A DNA stretch of 17,353 bases from Chloroflexota bacterium. Its GTDB lineage: Bacteria; Chloroflexota; Dehalococcoidia; SHYM01. Below are positions 4,632 to 12,479 of this stretch, piece by piece (position 1 is the first letter of the stretch; every line of letters starts with the position of its first letter). Made by a program: the position numbers and the translations under genes. The notes beneath the pieces are model-generated. The model ran no database searches and was not told the origin of the DNA. It was given only the letters and a program-made list of their open reading frames with translations. The stretch is from NCBI GenBank assembly GCA_016199375.1, contig JACQGV010000200.1, positions 1 through 17,353 on the forward strand. The letters are read 5' to 3'.

Positions 4632-5330
4632 ATGGGCTTGATGACTGACAAACAAATAAGGCAAGCGGTCGAAGCTAAGAGAGTTGTGATTGAAAACTTC
4701 GACACCAAGTACCTCCAGCCTGCAAGCTATGATATGCGGCTCGGGGAAGAGGCCATCACGGCTACGCTGCGCGAGAAGATCAATCCTGCCCAAAAGGGCC
4801 TGTTAACTATTCCATCCGGAGATTTCGCGCTTGTCACCACCCATGAAAGAATAGTGATGCCACCAGATATGGCTGGTCATCTAGGCATGCGTTCTCATTA
4901 TGCTAAGAAGGGGCTTGTTCTCCTTTCCGGCCCCCAGATAGACCCCGGCTTCAAAGGCGTATTGGTTCTAGGTTTTTCAAACCTTAGCCCTCGCGATATC
5001 ATCATCCCGTACAAGGACTCGCTCTGCACTGTCGAGTTCTATTCTCTAGAACAACCAGCGGAAAAGGGGTACCAGGGTGAGTACCAGGAACAGGTTGGCA
5101 TTTCAGCCAGAGACCTGGAGAACTTAGTCGAAGCCCAAGGGATGACCTTTGGACAGGTCATCAAAACTCTAGGGGAGTTAAGTCTAAATGTTAAGGAGTT
5201 AACTCTAAATGTTAAGTCGCTTTCGGATTCAGTCAGCTTTATGAGGTGGTTCGTCCCCGTTGGTCTAGCAGGCACAGCCCTTATCATCACAGTTGCCATA
5301 GCTATCATCAATATTCTCACGAGACGGTAA
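4632..5330 (+). CDS. Membrane-anchored dCTP-deaminase/dUTPase-fold protein
   Basis: A 232-residue protein whose N-terminal 155 residues resemble the dCTP deaminase/dUTPase family: LQPASYDMRLGEE (28-40), GMRSHYAKKGLVLLSG (85-100), IDPGFKGVLVLGFSN (103-117) and YQGEYQEQ (147-154). Compared with classic Dcd, the position of catalytic Glu138 (VLEFYN) reads VLGFSN, giving Gly114, and the Arg115 position appears as Lys92, so deamination looks unlikely. A heptad-patterned stretch (about 180-200) encoded by a 21-bp tandem repeat leads into one transmembrane helix (206-228) and a short RR tail, giving an N-in anchored topology. The region is AT-richer than its neighbours, suggesting transfer. I use the ATG at 4632 with weak GCAGGTG; an ATG at 4641 is also possible. 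The role is unknown: nucleotide sensing or phage defence are speculations. Confidence 0.82.
   Translation: MGLMTDKQIRQAVEAKRVVIENFDTKYLQPASYDMRLGEEAITATLREKINPAQKGLLTIPSGDFALVTTHERIVMPPDMAGHLGMRSHYAKKGLVLLSGPQIDPGFKGVLVLGFSNLSPRDIIIPYKDSLCTVEFYSLEQPAEKGYQGEYQEQVGISARDLENLVEAQGMTFGQVIKTLGELSLNVKELTLNVKSLSDSVSFMRWFVPVGLAGTALIITVAIAIINILTRR
5174..5215 (+). repeat. 21-bp tandem duplication inside the Dcd-like gene
   Basis: Two adjacent 21-nt units (5174-5194 and 5195-5215) differ at one position only (G5182 versus C5203). In frame they encode consecutive heptads of the form ELSLNVK and ELTLNVK, extending a probable coiled coil just before the membrane helix. Confidence 0.9.
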
Positions 5331-7284: not shown

Positions 7285-7290
7285 TAGAAT
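7285..7290 (+). promoter_or_regulatory. Possible -10 box for the NIL-moaD pair
   Basis: TAGAAT lies 31 nt before the chosen GTG start and just upstream of the ribosome-binding site GGAGGGGAG (7309-7317). No good -35 box is seen at 16-18 nt spacing. It is offered because the reverse-strand DinB-like gene makes simple read-through from the riboswitch transcript less certain. Confidence 0.35.
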
Positions 7291-7321
7291 GTGCCCGTAC
7301 GCAGCACCGGAGGGGAGCGTG

Positions 7322-7561
7322 GTGAAGCAGCGCGTCAAGTTCACCTTCCCCGAGAATCTCATCAAAGAGCCGGTCATCTACCAACTGGGCATGAAGTTCC
7401 AGGTCGTCACGAACATCCGGCGGGCCGACGTCGAGGAATCGAAGGGCTGGGTGGTGCTGGAGCTGGAAGGCGCCCAGCAGGCTATTGACGACTCCCTGCG
7501 CTGGGTGCGGCAGCAGGGAGTGATCGTGGCCCCGGTGACCGGAGACGTTATCGAGGGCTAG
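7322..7561 (+). CDS. NIL-domain protein
   Basis: A 79-residue protein consisting of one NIL domain, the ferredoxin-like fold first named from the C-terminus of methionine ABC-transporter ATPases (MetN), where it binds methionine. Segments are VKFTFPENLIKEPVIYQLG (residues 5-23), VVTNIRRADVE (28-38) and GWVVLELEGAQQAIDDSLRWV (42-62). The GTG at 7322 is chosen because GGAGGGGAG at 7309-7317 gives sensible spacing; GTG at 7319 is too close and an upstream ATG-like start at 7289 precedes the ribosome-binding site. It ends 23 nt before the MoaD-like gene, so the two are a pair. NIL domains also occur in the archaeal homocysteine synthase partner protein, which fits a methionine-synthesis role as sensor or sulfur/electron partner. 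Confidence 0.85.
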   Translation: MKQRVKFTFPENLIKEPVIYQLGMKFQVVTNIRRADVEESKGWVVLELEGAQQAIDDSLRWVRQQGVIVAPVTGDVIEG

Positions 7562-7584
7562 CGCCTACCACGGAGGCGACGCTA

Positions 7585-7860
7585 ATGCCAGTGAAGATTC
7601 GCATCCCCACGCCCCTGCGCTCGGCGACCAACGGCCGCGACATCGTGGAGCTGAAGGCCGCCAGCCTGAGTGGGCTCATTGACTCGCTGGACTCCACCTA
7701 CCCTGGGATCAAGGAGCGCCTGGTCGGCGACGACGGCGACATCCGTCACTTCGTCAACGTCTATGTCAACGGTGAGGATGTGCGCTTCCTCCAGGGGCTC
7801 GACACCTCTTTGAAGGACGGCGACGAGATCAGCATCGTCCCCGCCGTCGCCGGCGGCTAG
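7585..7860 (+). CDS. MoaD/ThiS-family sulfur-carrier protein
   Basis: A 91-residue beta-grasp protein of the MoaD/ThiS family. It opens with the KIRIPTPLRSATNGRD strand, has VNVYVNGEDVRF mid-domain and KDGDEISIVPAVAGG at the end. The C-terminal Gly90-Gly91 is the site that E1-like enzymes adenylate and convert to a thiocarboxylate, the sulfur donor for molybdopterin, thiazole, cysteine or homocysteine synthesis. GGAGG at 7572-7576 supports the ATG. Its position directly after the NIL gene and near the SAM-regulated PLP enzyme argues for an amino-acid role (like CysO or HcyS) rather than molybdenum cofactor. No E1-like activating enzyme or JAMM protease is in the window, so activation must be done from elsewhere. 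Confidence 0.88.
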   Translation: MPVKIRIPTPLRSATNGRDIVELKAASLSGLIDSLDSTYPGIKERLVGDDGDIRHFVNVYVNGEDVRFLQGLDTSLKDGDEISIVPAVAGG

Positions 7861-7908
7861 CCCTCAAGCTTCACACTGCCTGAGCTAATTTGGAATTGCT
7901 GGCGCCGC

Positions 7909-10473
7909 ATGTCTCCTCTAGACCAGATAACCAGCACTCCGTGGGGCCAGGCTGCCACTGGTGTGGCAGCTTTCATCCTCTTCGCGCTCGTTTGGCTTTA
8001 CCTTGTTCGCCGTGCCCGTGTCAAGCTAAAACGGGACCTAGAGCGTAGTCCCATACAAATCCTGGGGCCTCTTCTGAAGCGGTCTCTGGGGCTTTTGCAG
8101 GTCTGGGGACTGCTTGCGAGTGCCTTTTTTGCAGTAGAGCTTGCTGGCGGCGCTCTGCCATCCAACGTATCCGGTCCTCTGCAGAAGGTCCTCTTTGGCG
8201 TGCTGGCAGTTTTAGTGGGCTCAACCGTGACAGCGGCAATAGTGCGCCTAGTAGGTCATTCGCTGAAGGCGGCGCAAACACCCCTCCCGCTAGTGAGGTT
8301 CAGCGAGCTGGTGGCCCTCGTGAGCTTCAGCTATCTGACTCTGCTCACCCTGCTCGCTGTAATAAACGTCTCTATCACGCCTCTTCTCGGGCTGGGCGCC
8401 GTAGCAGCCATTCCTCTTCTGCTGGTGCTCCAGGACGCAGCGTCGGACCTCTTCTTTTATTTCCGCTTGATGCGACGGCAGTATTTGAGAGTAGGCGACT
8501 TTGTGCGCCTGGAGAATGGCATCGCCGGGCATGTGGTGTCCATCACTTGGCAGGACGTGCGAATCCGCACCAAGGCCAATAATCTGGCTGTCATCCCCAA
8601 TCGCCGGATGGCGAAGCTGCTGGTCACCAACTTCCATCTGCCCGTTGGTCGGACTTCGCTGACCATCGCTATACCGGTGACTCAGGGCCCGCCTCCCGAA
8701 GTTCTTGAATCTATCCTTCAAGAGGAGCTCCAGTTGGCCGTTCGGGACCTCCCAGGCCTGGCACCTGACATCCTTCCTGAAATCAAGAGGGCTTCGAGTA
8801 GGTCAGGGGAGGCAAACTCGTTCATCGTCCTGTGTCAAGTCGAGGACCCTGACTTCACGGACGGAGTAGAGCGGGAGTTGCTCAAGAGGATTGCACGTCG
8901 TTTCAAGAAAGAGGAAATTCGGAGCCCGCTCCTGGATTCAGTCGTGGAGGAGGAACGCGAAACCCCGACCACTCAGAGCGGCCAGGAGCTCCGCTTTCTC
9001 GTGGGAAGCAAACTGAAAGATGCCCTTTTTGTGGTCGCCTCCAATGTAGAACCCTATACCCACACCCTTGAAGGTAAGTCTATCCAGTGGGCCAGTCCGG
9101 CCAGTGGCCTAGTTACTGCGATCGACCCCGTGATGCGCCTCCTGGGAGGAGTGTGGGTTGCCGTGGCCAGGGGCAATGCCGACCGAGAGGTCAGCGGGGC
9201 TCAAGGCCGCATCCCCGTGCCGCCTGATAGGCCCCAATATACCTTGCGTCGCCTCTTCCTTTCTAGAGACCAGGTAGAGAAATATTACTACGGCATCAGT
9301 AACAGAGCCTTCTGGCCCCTCTGCCACACTGTCTATGTGCGTCCTGCCTTCAACGCCGCCGAATGGGAAGACTACAAGGAAGTGAATCGGCTGTTCGCCG
9401 AGGCCATCCTAGAGGAGATCAGGGGCAAAAGGGCGTTCGTCTTCCTCCAGGACTTCCACCTTGCTCTCGTCCCACAACTGCTGAAAGACGCCGGGGCGAA
9501 TGTCGCCGTGGCGCACTTTTGGCATATCCCGTGGCCCACCAGCGAGGTGTTTCAGACCTGTCCCTGGGGCGAAGAGATTCTCTTGGGTCTTCTCGGCAAC
9601 GACCTCCTAGGTTTCCATACACGGCATCACTGCAACAACTTCCTCGATACCGTGGACAAGGTGCTGGAGTCACGAGTGGACTATGGCACCTACAGCGTTA
9701 CCCGCCAGGGCCACCATACCCTGGTGAGGCCCTTCCCCATTAGTGTGGACTTTGAGGCCATCTCTCAAGGCGTCGCCAGCGAACCCGTCCAACGGGAAAG
9801 GCGACGCCTAATGGAGCAGCTAGGCTTCCGTCGCGGCCCCATAGGGTTGGGGGTCGATCGCCTGGACTACACCAAGGGCATTCCCGAGCGGCTGAAGGCC
9901 ATAGACCGCCTCCTGGAATTGCATCCCCAGTTGAAGGGTAGGTTCACCTTTATCCAGGTCGGCGTGCCCAGCCGCTCCCAGATCAAGGAGTACCGGGAAG
10001 TGGACGATGAAGTCCAACACCTGGTGGACGAGATCAACTGGCGGCATCGCACGGACTCCTGGGAGCCCGTCATCTACTTCCGCCGGTACTTCTCCTCCAT
10101 ACCCTTGTGGGCCCTCTATTCATTGGCCGATTTTTGCATTGTTAGCTCACTCCACGATGGCATGAACCTGGTAGCCAAAGAGTACGTCGCTGCCCGCCCT
10201 GACGCCACAGGGGTGCTCATCCTGAGCCGCTTCACCGGGGCTGCCACTGAGCTGGCAGACGCCCTGCTGGTGAACCCCTACGACACCGAGCGGTTTGCAG
10301 AGGCTATCGCTCAAGCCTTGGAGATGCCCGCGTCAGAGCAGTCCCGGCGGATGCAGCGGATGAGGGCCTATTTGCGGGAGAACGATATCTACCGCTGGGC
10401 CATCCGCGTTCTGACCGAGCTCTCGCGCTTGGAGACATCTATGCCTGAACCCTTGCTGCCTGGGGCGCGCTAA
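7909..10473 (+). CDS. MscS-like mechanosensitive channel fused to trehalose-6-phosphate synthase
   Basis: A single 854-residue frame with two recognisable parts. Residues 14-34, 58-80, 92-116, 132-155 and 156-185 are membrane helices. The last plus YLRVGDFVRLENGIAGHVVSITWQDVRIRT and VIPNRRMAK form the MscS pore helix and beta domain (to about 245), followed by a soluble vestibule-like region (to about 345). Residues 370-840 are a GT20 synthase making trehalose-6-phosphate from UDP-glucose (or another nucleotide sugar) and glucose-6-phosphate: SNVEPYTHTLEG (378-389), LQDFHL (513-518), FWHIPWP (537-543), VDRLDYTKG (649-657) and LHDGMNLVAKE (748-758), so the active-site set looks complete. The frame is unbroken across the junction. 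Codon use looks less GC-biased than neighbours, hinting at transfer. The start has no strong ribosome-binding site. Tension-controlled osmolyte synthesis is inferred. Confidence 0.92.
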   Translation: MSPLDQITSTPWGQAATGVAAFILFALVWLYLVRRARVKLKRDLERSPIQILGPLLKRSLGLLQVWGLLASAFFAVELAGGALPSNVSGPLQKVLFGVLAVLVGSTVTAAIVRLVGHSLKAAQTPLPLVRFSELVALVSFSYLTLLTLLAVINVSITPLLGLGAVAAIPLLLVLQDAASDLFFYFRLMRRQYLRVGDFVRLENGIAGHVVSITWQDVRIRTKANNLAVIPNRRMAKLLVTNFHLPVGRTSLTIAIPVTQGPPPEVLESILQEELQLAVRDLPGLAPDILPEIKRASSRSGEANSFIVLCQVEDPDFTDGVERELLKRIARRFKKEEIRSPLLDSVVEEERETPTTQSGQELRFLVGSKLKDALFVVASNVEPYTHTLEGKSIQWASPASGLVTAIDPVMRLLGGVWVAVARGNADREVSGAQGRIPVPPDRPQYTLRRLFLSRDQVEKYYYGISNRAFWPLCHTVYVRPAFNAAEWEDYKEVNRLFAEAILEEIRGKRAFVFLQDFHLALVPQLLKDAGANVAVAHFWHIPWPTSEVFQTCPWGEEILLGLLGNDLLGFHTRHHCNNFLDTVDKVLESRVDYGTYSVTRQGHHTLVRPFPISVDFEAISQGVASEPVQRERRRLMEQLGFRRGPIGLGVDRLDYTKGIPERLKAIDRLLELHPQLKGRFTFIQVGVPSRSQIKEYREVDDEVQHLVDEINWRHRTDSWEPVIYFRRYFSSIPLWALYSLADFCIVSSLHDGMNLVAKEYVAARPDATGVLILSRFTGAATELADALLVNPYDTERFAEAIAQALEMPASEQSRRMQRMRAYLRENDIYRWAIRVLTELSRLETSMPEPLLPGAR

Positions 10474-10675: not shown

Positions 10676-11029
10676 ATGAGGCTGTACCTGTTCGACGTGG
10701 ATGAGACCCTTGAGTGTTCTGGAGGACCAATCAAACTCAACTCCTTGGTAGTCCTGCGGAATGAGGGGCATATACTCGGGCTGTGCGGCAACTTCGCCAT
10801 GGTTACTCTGCACATAGCCAACTGGCATCACCTCTTCTCGCTCATCGGGCCTATGAGTATGTCAAAGACCGATTTTATGAGGAACGTTCGCCAGCATGTT
10901 CCTGCCGACGACTACATCATGGTTGGAAATATACTGGGCGTCAGCGGGGCATCAGACGACAGTGGAGCGGCGGGCGAGGCCGGATGGCGGTTCATCAAGG
11001 AGTCTGACTTTGCGCAGGGGGCAAGTTAG
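10676..11029 (+). CDS. Small HAD-like protein of unknown function
   Basis: A 117-residue protein that begins with the HAD-superfamily motif I signature FDVDETL (Asp7, Asp9, Thr11) and ends with VGNILGVSGASDDSGAAGEAGWRFI (83-107), which resembles motif IV plus the following core strand and helix. The intervening part is too short for a cap domain, and no obvious motif III lysine can be fixed, so it may be a minimal or degenerate HAD fold. GGAGG at 10667-10671 with 4-nt spacing supports the ATG at 10676. It lies 202 nt after the trehalose-6-phosphate synthase fusion. OtsB, the matching phosphatase, is also a HAD protein, but this one is less than half its size, so I do not call it OtsB. Confidence 0.7.
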   Translation: MRLYLFDVDETLECSGGPIKLNSLVVLRNEGHILGLCGNFAMVTLHIANWHHLFSLIGPMSMSKTDFMRNVRQHVPADDYIMVGNILGVSGASDDSGAAGEAGWRFIKESDFAQGAS

Positions 11030-11127: not shown

Positions 11128-11271
11128 GGCTCTGTTGACATCAACGCTTACAAGCGCTTTCTTCCCACCCACCCTCCCTCGAAACGTTCTTGGGCTTGAG
11201 GGGACACCCCTCAAACCCCCTGGCAGTCCCGGCCTGTCGGGACTGCACTCTCCCAGGATGTCAACAGAGCC
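11128..11271. mobile_element. 144-bp MITE-like element with perfect 15-bp terminal inverted repeats
   Basis: GGCTCTGTTGACATC (11128-11142) recurs as its exact complement at 11257-11271. Between them there is no coding frame but two tight hairpins: TTGAGGGG/CCCCTCAA (11196-11203, 11207-11214) and GCAGTCCCG/CGGGACTGC (11223-11231, 11238-11246). The termini resemble, from memory, IS6-type ends (GGxTCTGTTG). Flanking octamers (GGTCATTG, AAACAAGC) do not match, so no target duplication is seen. This makes up most of the 319-nt gene-free stretch 11030-11348. Confidence 0.65.
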
Positions 11272-11298
11272 AAACAAGCTCTGGAAGGGTTAAACTGG

Positions 11299-11330
11299 GC
11301 CTGGCCGTGCGCCGTAGAAGCTGGCCAGGC
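11299..11330 (+). other. Hairpin just upstream of menC
   Basis: GCCTGGCC (11299-11306) and GGCCAGGC (11323-11330) form a perfect 8-bp stem with a 16-nt loop ending 18 nt before the menC ATG. There is no T-run. It might affect translation initiation or be unrelated. No clear sigma70 promoter for menC is visible here. Confidence 0.35.
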
Positions 11331-11348
11331 TAGGTGTATTTAGATGCC

Positions 11349-12479
11349 ATGAGTGCAGCGCTGGAAGTGTCACGCATCGAATGGCAGGGCGTGCGCGTCC
11401 CCTTCCGGCGGCCCTTCGTCACCGCCGAGGGCGGCGCCCGCTTTCGCTACGCCATGTTGCTGACCGTCCGTACCGAGGGCGGGGTCATGGGCTGGGGCGA
11501 GGCGGGGGCGGTGGGCGCTGGCACCGCCGCCAGCCTGCGGAGCCTCGATGCGTTGCTGCGGCTGACGGGCCCGCATTTGCTCGGCGTCCCGCTGCGCGCC
11601 GTGCCGGCGCGGGCCCGCGCCATCCTGGGGGGCAGCCCTCTGGCGCACGCGCTCGGCTTCGGCATTGAGACAGCGATATACGATGCCCTGGGGCGCGCCC
11701 GTGGGAGGTCCGTAGCTAGACTCGTGGGGGGCGAGCCCCGCCCGGTGCCGGTGAACGCGACGCTGGGCGTGGCCTCGCCGGCAGAGACGGCACGGCAGGC
11801 CCGTCTGGCCTTCTCCGAGGGGTTCACGACCCTGAAGCTGAAGGTGACGGGCGAGGGTGAGCAGGATGGCGCTGTGATCGAGGCGGTGCGGGCGGCTGTA
11901 GGCAGTAGCGTGAGGCTACGGCTGGACCCCAACCAGGCCTGGAGCGCCGAGGAAGCGGTCGCGGCCCTGGCGCGCCTGAAGAGATACGGTGTCGAGTATG
12001 TGGAGCAACCGGTGGCGGCGCGCGACATCGCGGGCCTGGTCCGGGTGAGACGTGAGGCGGGTGTGCCCGTCGCCGCCGACGAAACGGTGACTGGCCTGTA
12101 CCGGGCGCGCCGGGTGCTGGATGCTGGGGCGGCTGACGTGCTGGTGATAAAGGCCGCGCGGGTGGGTGGCCTGAGGGCGGCCGCCGCCATCCTGCTGCTG
12201 GCGCGCCGGCGCGGAGTGCCGGCCGTGGTCACGTCATCCCTGGAGACGGGCGTCGGCATCGCCGCGTCGTTGCACCTGGCGGCGCTAACGGATACTGGCT
12301 GGCCGGCCTGCGGCCTGGCGACTGGTGTGTTGCTGGAGTCGGACTTGCTGGTGGAGCCCCTGCTCCCGAGAAGAGGGATGATGAGAGTGCCGGAGCGGCC
12401 CGGACTGGGAGTAGAGGTGGACCAGGCTGCGTTGCATCGCTACCGCGCGGGCCCGGCGGGCAGCGTCGCGGCGCCCTGA
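11349..12479 (+). CDS. menC: o-Succinylbenzoate synthase (enolase superfamily)
   Basis: A 376-residue enolase-superfamily enzyme of the muconate-lactonizing/OSBS group, with the complete acid-base and metal set: KLK motif (Lys163, Lys165), Asp193 in RLDPNQ, Glu219 in VEQPV, Asp244 in AADET, and Lys268 in VIKAARVGG. OSBS dehydrates SHCHC to o-succinylbenzoate in menaquinone synthesis. Sequence alone cannot separate OSBS from dipeptide epimerase or N-succinylamino acid racemase; the adjacent menF, menD and menH decide the call. The ATG at 11349 is chosen; a GTG at 11334 would add five residues and neither has a strong ribosome-binding site. It is on the opposite strand to the other men genes, and its last 40 nt overlap the end of menH. 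Confidence 0.88.
   Translation: MSAALEVSRIEWQGVRVPFRRPFVTAEGGARFRYAMLLTVRTEGGVMGWGEAGAVGAGTAASLRSLDALLRLTGPHLLGVPLRAVPARARAILGGSPLAHALGFGIETAIYDALGRARGRSVARLVGGEPRPVPVNATLGVASPAETARQARLAFSEGFTTLKLKVTGEGEQDGAVIEAVRAAVGSSVRLRLDPNQAWSAEEAVAALARLKRYGVEYVEQPVAARDIAGLVRVRREAGVPVAADETVTGLYRARRVLDAGAADVLVIKAARVGGLRAAAAILLLARRRGVPAVVTSSLETGVGIAASLHLAALTDTGWPACGLATGVLLESDLLVEPLLPRRGMMRVPERPGLGVEVDQAALHRYRAGPAGSVAAP

Follow-up and report, generated by a model that had tools for sequence, protein, structure and literature searches.

A genetic association between mechanosensitive channels and trehalose synthesis was described in 2013 for Thermoproteus tenax, in which the msc-gt-tpsp genes form a tricistronic transcript that encodes a putative mechanosensitive channel, a GT4 glycosyltransferase and a GT20-phosphatase protein (PMC3634074). 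In this system the GT4 protein activates the synthase, and trehalose efflux through the MSC protein was modelled as part of a joint osmotic response (PMC3634074). The part of that report drawn on here states that the msc-gt-tpsp operon is unique to Thermoproteus and Pyrobaculum (PMC3634074). The trehalose pathways of Sulfolobus are salt-induced, and channel genes are not mentioned in the sections of that source drawn on here (PMC7688234). In this work, we describe a comparable association in Chloroflexota, centred on a gene at positions 7909-10473 of a 17,353-nucleotide stretch of DNA (the window; contig JACQGV010000200.1 of assembly GCA_016199375.1, from the class Dehalococcoidia) that joins a module of the MscS channel type to a trehalose-6-phosphate-synthase-like GT20 domain in one polypeptide.

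The T. tenax operon is the closest precedent. It resembles the Chloroflexota clusters in grouping a channel gene with trehalose-type genes (PMC3634074). The two also differ, since the T. tenax channel is a 197-residue protein that resembles the MscS membrane region and is separate from the enzyme, whereas the Chloroflexota fusion carries an MscS module and GT20 in one chain, and the T. tenax GT4 protein was likened to PimA (PMC3634074); those of the Chloroflexota clusters are TreT-like. These clusters belong to a GT20 clade (clade A) that includes the fusions, and at 26 of its 50 unfused loci both MscS and a TreT-like GT4 lie beside GT20, whereas neither a trehalose-phosphatase nor a GT4 gene was seen adjoining the window fusion.

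Individual proteins provide a second comparison. Stand-alone MscS proteins of ~370 residues align end to end with the fused module but lack GT20 and keep their pore glycines, while Escherichia coli MscS and YnaI align with part of the module and also have no GT20 domain. OtsA is like the fusion in having a GT20 domain with its donor-site residues kept, but neither OtsA nor the OtsA-OtsB proteins have a membrane module, and Arg9 is retained in the OtsA-like sequences of the class, 16 of 17 of which also have the second Trp of W-x-x-W, unlike the fusion. As far as titles and opening lines of abstracts show, no description of an MscS-GT20 fusion was found in the literature. An earlier, sequence-only reading of the window knew of no described system of this design, which holds for the covalent fusion within the literature covered here but not for the unfused arrangement, since the msc-gt-tpsp operon has been known since 2013 (PMC3634074). 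The domains are known and the gene association is of a known kind, whereas the covalent design is new; Chloroflexota show an association similar to that of T. tenax and add covalent fusions to it.

An MscS module and a GT20 domain in one chain

The fusion gene is one uninterrupted frame of 854 codons with an ATG start and no internal stop, so the two halves are joined without a frame break, as the sequence-only reading had noted. Its features are as follows.

7909..10473, + strand: MscS-GT20 fusion gene, 854 residues, ATG start (open frame, Pfam, full-length relatives)
7942..8463, + strand: five membrane helices, residues ~12-185, of which the last corresponds to the pore helix (GLGAVAAIPLLLVLQDAASD) (hydropathy, alignment with stand-alone MscS; boundaries approximate)
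8467..8637, + strand: MscS beta domain, PF00924, residues 187-243 (Pfam E 9e-9, solved MscS structures)
8644..8928, + strand: MscS C-terminal alpha/beta domain, residues ~246-340 (profile comparison, alignment with 3udc/3t9n)
8929..9024, + strand: linker, residues ~341-372 (poorly conserved; no start codon common to the four fusions)
9034..10425, + strand: GT20 (trehalose-6-phosphate-synthase-like) domain, residues 376-839 (Pfam, solved-structure alignment)
9046..9048, + strand: codon GTA (Val380), the counterpart of OtsA Arg9 (GT20 alignment, codon comparison; role of the residue as described in the parts of PMC1769515 and PMC5685639 drawn on here)

A Pfam search placed both domains above threshold, with MS_channel_2nd (PF00924, the beta domain) at residues 187-243 (E 9e-9, 35.8 bits against a curated cut-off of 20.2) and Glyco_transf_20 at residues 376-839 (E 6.7e-126, 421 bits), where profile positions 5-472 of 473 are covered and the domain is thus full length. 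Among solved structures, the best MscS matches cover residues 141-339 and the best trehalose-6-phosphate synthase match covers residues 371-843. N-terminal to the beta domain, hydropathy predicts five membrane segments (residues ~12-38, 60-83, 87-119, 128-152 and 153-183), the boundary between the fourth and fifth being our division of one long hydrophobic stretch. The Pfam family MS_channel_3rd (PF21082) gave no score on the fusion protein. A profile of the four fused modules now known (see below) aligned with 12 stand-alone MscS proteins of ~370 residues over columns 7-337 of 347 (E 6.8e-37); therefore, the alpha/beta domain is present and the MscS module is complete ahead of the enzyme. The MscS-type module with five helices and a beta domain that had been proposed from the sequence is borne out by these analyses.

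Conservation and origin of the fusion

A pattern-seeded scan of the GTDB species collection returned two full-length relatives of the fusion, L002 (JACPQL010000043.1, 70% identity) and L003 (JACQUM010000051.1, 57-58%), plus three Planctomycetota GT20 genes. Among the matches listed, the fusion was also present in 3 of 393 genomes of the class (the window's own, G000, together with G029 and G110), and 301 genomes from the rest of the phylum showed no such fusion. The G029 copy (locus L046) is 68-69% identical to that of the window, and G110 was counted as the same fusion as L003, giving four fusion species in all. The sequence-only reading had left room for a sequencing error at the junction; three other species carry the same architecture along its length, and the same fusion in their separate assemblies rules out an assembly error or two artificially joined genes. 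That the fusion exists as a genuine, working gene product is close to certain.

The four fusions form one clade in the GT20 tree (support 100/100, and 100 in another GT20 tree) and one clade in the MscS tree (support 100), and judged from these trees they share a single origin. In the GT20 tree the fusion clade sits inside the larger clade A, which also includes Planctomycetota sequences. In pairwise comparisons, nonsynonymous divergence (dN) was 0.15-0.28 for the GT20 half and 0.26-0.52 for the MscS half, while synonymous divergence (dS) was at least 1.3 or saturated; because dN is well below a near-saturated dS, both halves look to be under purifying selection. Conservation is lowest in the linker, with 22-59% identity in fusion pairs. 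No start codon in the linker is common to the four fusions (a GTG at residue 365 with AGGAG 12 bases upstream occurs in the window fusion alone), so separate expression of GT20 from an internal start was rejected and the enzyme seems to be produced as a fusion only.

The fused MscS module may descend from an MscS::DUF5752 type of protein (see below) or from the 370-residue type. Descent from MscS::DUF5752 had a support of 63, grouping with the 370-residue type was not rejected (approximately unbiased test, p-AU 0.358), and the fused half is a long branch in both MscS trees. The nearest stand-alone MscS gene, in G008, has no trehalose-type genes by profile search in the surrounding 20 kb.

MscS genes in the trehalose-type clusters of relatives

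Using our own profiles, we read the gene neighbourhoods around 50 unfused loci of clade A in the class, taken from among the matches listed. Six of these loci (L091, L092 and L094-L097) were too short for the tree and were placed in clade A by identity alone, two genomes (G202 and G261) are represented by two loci apiece, several loci sit at the end of a contig, and two clade-A fragments (G207:C27 and G011:C143) were omitted. A trehalose-phosphatase gene lies within 3.5 kb of GT20 at 42 of the 50 loci; none was seen in the clusters of L058 and L092. At 26 loci there is a gene in which an MscS module is fused to DUF5752, in every case on the GT20 strand and with a TreT-like GT4 gene in the same stretch (26 of 26). 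Pfam identified MscS and DUF5752 in all four such proteins scanned (L047, L062, L065 and L066) and TreT_GT1 in three of the clade-A GT4 genes. One example is the following.

L062, 9910-11325: MscS::DUF5752 gene, with MscS membrane and beta domains followed by DUF5752; 25 further clade-A loci within L047-L092 have one

The MscS::DUF5752 proteins resemble the MscS-GT20 fusion in carrying a trehalose-cluster domain at the C-terminus of MscS membrane and beta domains, but in them DUF5752 begins right after the beta domain, whereas the MscS-GT20 fusion retains the alpha/beta domain. Two kinds of fusion thus connect MscS modules with trehalose-cluster domains. DUF5752 has the fold of OrfY (PDB 4cso, annotated as a transcription factor; profile E 1.3e-38), which a stand-alone Planctomycetota copy also matches (E 3.9e-14). 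OrfY may be linked to the trehalose genes of T. tenax; literature searches on DUF5752 and OrfY returned nothing useful here. Among 386 genomes of the class there were 43 strong matches to DUF5752, 39 of them in frames of 447-518 residues, the size of an MscS fusion (the MscS part was checked directly in the 26 loci above), and four in frames of 167-316 residues. No match was present in G000 or G029, and G110 does not appear in the list of genomes that have a match. At three Planctomycetota loci, genes for TreT, GT20 and a phosphatase adjoin a DUF5752 gene that has no MscS part. The invariant His, Asn-Asp, Trp and Arg residues of DUF5752 resemble a doubled motif.

Seven clade-A loci have an additional plain MscS gene beside GT20 (the L058 copy is a 123-residue piece only), and at L054 the plain MscS frame stops just one stop codon short of the opening of the GT20 frame. 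The control loci were 17 from clade B and 12 from clade C, part of those listed. MscS was found at 0 of 17 loci of clade B, which contains typical OtsA and OtsA-OtsB fusions, and at 5 of 12 loci of clade C (L115, L120, L122, L124 and L125). At four of these five loci MscS adjoins a phosphatase gene, both facing GT20, while L120 has no phosphatase gene in view. Clade C is a different GT20 clade, ~34% identical, and its MscS genes are short (~285-325 residues).

In 60 relatives plus the window's own genome, an MscS gene lies within 3 kb of 14 of 43 unfused GT20 loci, against 0.24 expected; this count is inflated by shared descent, yet the 14 matches fall in 14 genera. These genomes have zero to five MscS genes each. 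The 43 loci are what remained of 45 after two fused loci were set aside, with weak or short matches in G013, G030 and G054 and a 57-residue piece in G032 excluded and two G036 pieces merged.

Two minor features were seen in these neighbourhoods. L048 has a short GT20-like piece (11263-11589, - strand) upstream of its complete cluster, near a contig end, and in L004 a ClC chloride channel with CBS domains (7478-9382, + strand) adjoins a Planctomycetota GT20-phosphatase pair, so that it is another ion channel beside trehalose-type genes.

A possible link between membrane state and osmolyte synthesis

These comparisons give good support to a purposeful link between the MscS module and an osmolyte-type synthase, because the fusion occurs in four species with one origin, both halves are conserved, and MscS is often found beside unfused trehalose-type genes. 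A link of membrane tension to osmolyte synthesis may therefore well be real. Bacteria raise osmolytes on water loss and lower them on swelling, and the MscS architecture has an odd number of helices and a cytosolic C-terminus, which would place GT20 at the base of the vestibule. The complete five-helix module is predicted to sit in the membrane, as a heptamer if the MscS habit is kept, with its C-termini in the cytosol and a putative GT20 glucosyltransferase borne by each subunit at the cytosolic vestibule base. The MscS module would read membrane tension or cytosolic crowding and set the activity or the clustering of the synthase; low tension, as in water loss, would permit synthesis of trehalose-6-phosphate or a close relative, and high tension, as in swelling, would turn it off. 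Channel conformation may gate synthesis with the enzyme hanging from the heptamer, as the sequence-only reading proposed. That the module ties synthase activity or clustering to the state of the membrane is the most likely reading of the fusion, although it is put forward tentatively.

Several observations in the genomes, the pore helix and the active site weigh against this reading. A PF02358 phosphatase was found in neither G000 (63% complete) nor G110 (78% complete), although the G029 genome has one and the fusions of L002 and G029 are immediately preceded by a trehalose-phosphatase gene. No MscS gene lies within 3.5 kb at 24 of the 50 clade-A loci, some of them owing to contig ends. The stem leading to the fusions is 1.9 changes per site for the MscS half against 0.25 for the GT20 half, a rough comparison since the sister sequences are not equally close. 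The usual Gly/Ala packing pattern, which we take to define the MscS channel family, is missing from the fused pore helix, so the channel may not conduct. At the acceptor site of the enzyme the counterpart of OtsA Arg9 is Val380 (in 79 aligned GT20 sequences this column has Arg in 77 and Val in two, the window and L003), and in the W-x-x-W motif the first Trp is kept (416) while the second is Val419; the fusion enzyme may be weak or act on a different acceptor.

The pore helix of all four fusions reads AIPLLLVLQ or a close variant, in place of the GIAIGFGAQ (type A) or GLAVALALQ (370-residue type) of ordinary relatives, and thus carries Pro and bulky residues where ordinary MscS helices carry Gly and Ala. 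In the stretch of window residues 160-176 the mean number of glycines is 2.0 in the fusions, 3.1 in type A and 3.8 in the 370-residue type. The modules of the MscS::DUF5752 proteins are likewise short of pore-helix glycines, while plain MscS genes in the same clusters retain the glycine pattern, and each of the four fusion genomes or contigs (G000, G029, L002 and L003) has a separate MscS gene with an ordinary pore. Because the glycine pattern is lost, a sensor or an anchor fits the fused module at least as well as an open pore, and this distribution suggests that MscS modules fused to cytosolic domains may serve rather as sensors or anchors, with plain MscS proteins acting as valves.

One alternative is that the MscS module is a plain tether, which merely anchors or concentrates the synthase at the membrane and passes no tension signal to the enzyme. 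The variable linker (22-59% identity), the degenerate pore helix and the fast evolution of the membrane half are consistent with such a function, but a complete MscS module whose beta and alpha/beta domains are under constraint exceeds the needs of an anchor, and we consider a mere tether possible but somewhat unlikely.

A stronger form of the preferred reading, coupling of the synthase to membrane state, would be that tension acts directly on an osmolyte enzyme through a covalent, possibly non-conducting MscS sensor, with no second messenger. We regard this form as doubtful on present comparisons; if it is true, the MscS::DUF5752 proteins would be a two-protein version of the same principle. 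To our knowledge, the links between tension and osmolytes known so far run through gene expression, ions or separate channels. The MscS-GT20 fusion and the MscS::DUF5752 genes in the clusters of relatives provide a direct genetic argument that membrane tension may be wired to osmolyte synthesis, and the fusion is a one-protein system in which such wiring can be assayed.

It has also to be considered that the fusion is a unit for synthesis and release, in which an osmolyte made at high osmolarity leaves through the attached channel on hypo-osmotic shock. This is the published model for T. tenax msc-gt-tpsp (PMC3634074), and the Chloroflexota relatives pair the same genes. However, the Pro and bulky residues that replace Gly and Ala in the fused pore helix speak against it, and the separate, ordinary MscS of all four fusion genomes or contigs could perform the release, so that this function is unlikely for the fused module.

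The product of the enzyme depends on its active site, which the sequence-only reading had described as having all key motifs intact. This does not hold at the acceptor side, given the changes at the Arg9 and second Trp positions, but it does at the donor side. Eleven residues of OtsA that contact substrates have been listed, all of them conserved in the proteins with trehalose-6-phosphate synthase activity then reported, according to the part of the source drawn on here (PMC1769515), and Arg9 takes part in glucose-6-phosphate binding (PMC1769515; PMC5685639). With OtsA positions placed by motif, from the alignment to 5jij and OtsA numbering, the fusion retains at least 9 of the 11. Those for UDP-glucose (Gly22, Asp130, His154, Arg262, Asp361 and Glu369) are all kept, as are Tyr76, Trp85 and Arg300 for glucose-6-phosphate, while Arg9 is replaced by Val380 and Trp40 has no certain placement (Trp416 is kept, and Val419 follows). 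The codons at the Arg9 site are GTA in the window and GTT in L003, which are at least two bases from any Arg codon, so a read error is unlikely; they are AGA and AGG in the L002 and G029 fusions, which keep Arg. The second Trp of W-x-x-W is Trp in 16 of 17 clade-B rows and absent in 43 of 44 clade-A rows, where it is His in 37, and the four fusions have Val, Val, Ala and Gln at this position. In a scan of the window protein, the NCBIfam trehalose-6-phosphate synthase equivalog TIGR02400 scored 442 bits, below its cut-off of 565. Since a residue conserved in the active synthases then reported (PMC1769515) is altered here, the product is not certain, and trehalose-6-phosphate is predicted by homology only, with an altered acceptor site.

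Another reading is that the GT20 half has lost trehalose-6-phosphate synthase function and now uses another acceptor, or controls the MscS half as a sensor of sugar phosphates. In its favour, two of the four fusions lack the Arg9 equivalent, which is lost in 0 of the 75 other sequences that have this column, and the second Trp is missing from all four fusions as well as from 43 of 44 unfused clade-A rows. This reading is nevertheless very improbable, since every donor-site residue is kept, the half is strongly conserved (66-77% identity between fusions) and two fusions still have Arg at the Arg9 place.

Neighbouring genes in the window

The fusion lies 48 bases downstream of a ThiS-like gene, which is preceded by a NIL-domain gene, all on the same strand; these NIL-domain and ThiS/MoaD-like genes (7289-7860, + strand) are directly upstream of the fusion and follow a threonine-synthase-like gene. 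The G+C content at third codon positions (GC3) is 0.70 in the fusion, and 13 of 14 other window genes lie at 0.80-0.94, a contrast that would be consistent with horizontal acquisition of the fusion. This argument is weak because the other fusions have a similar GC3 (0.69-0.75) and two genes next to the L002 fusion have values of 0.73 and 0.80.

Downstream of the fusion, a frame of 117 residues (10676-11029, + strand) matched no Pfam family and is possibly a remnant; its start (MRLYLFDVDETL) presumably resembles an HAD phosphatase. Upstream, positions 4632-5330 (+ strand) encode a dCTP-deaminase-like domain with a hydrophobic C-terminal segment, in a gene with a G+C content of 0.49 (0.66 for the window) and a GC3 of 0.54.

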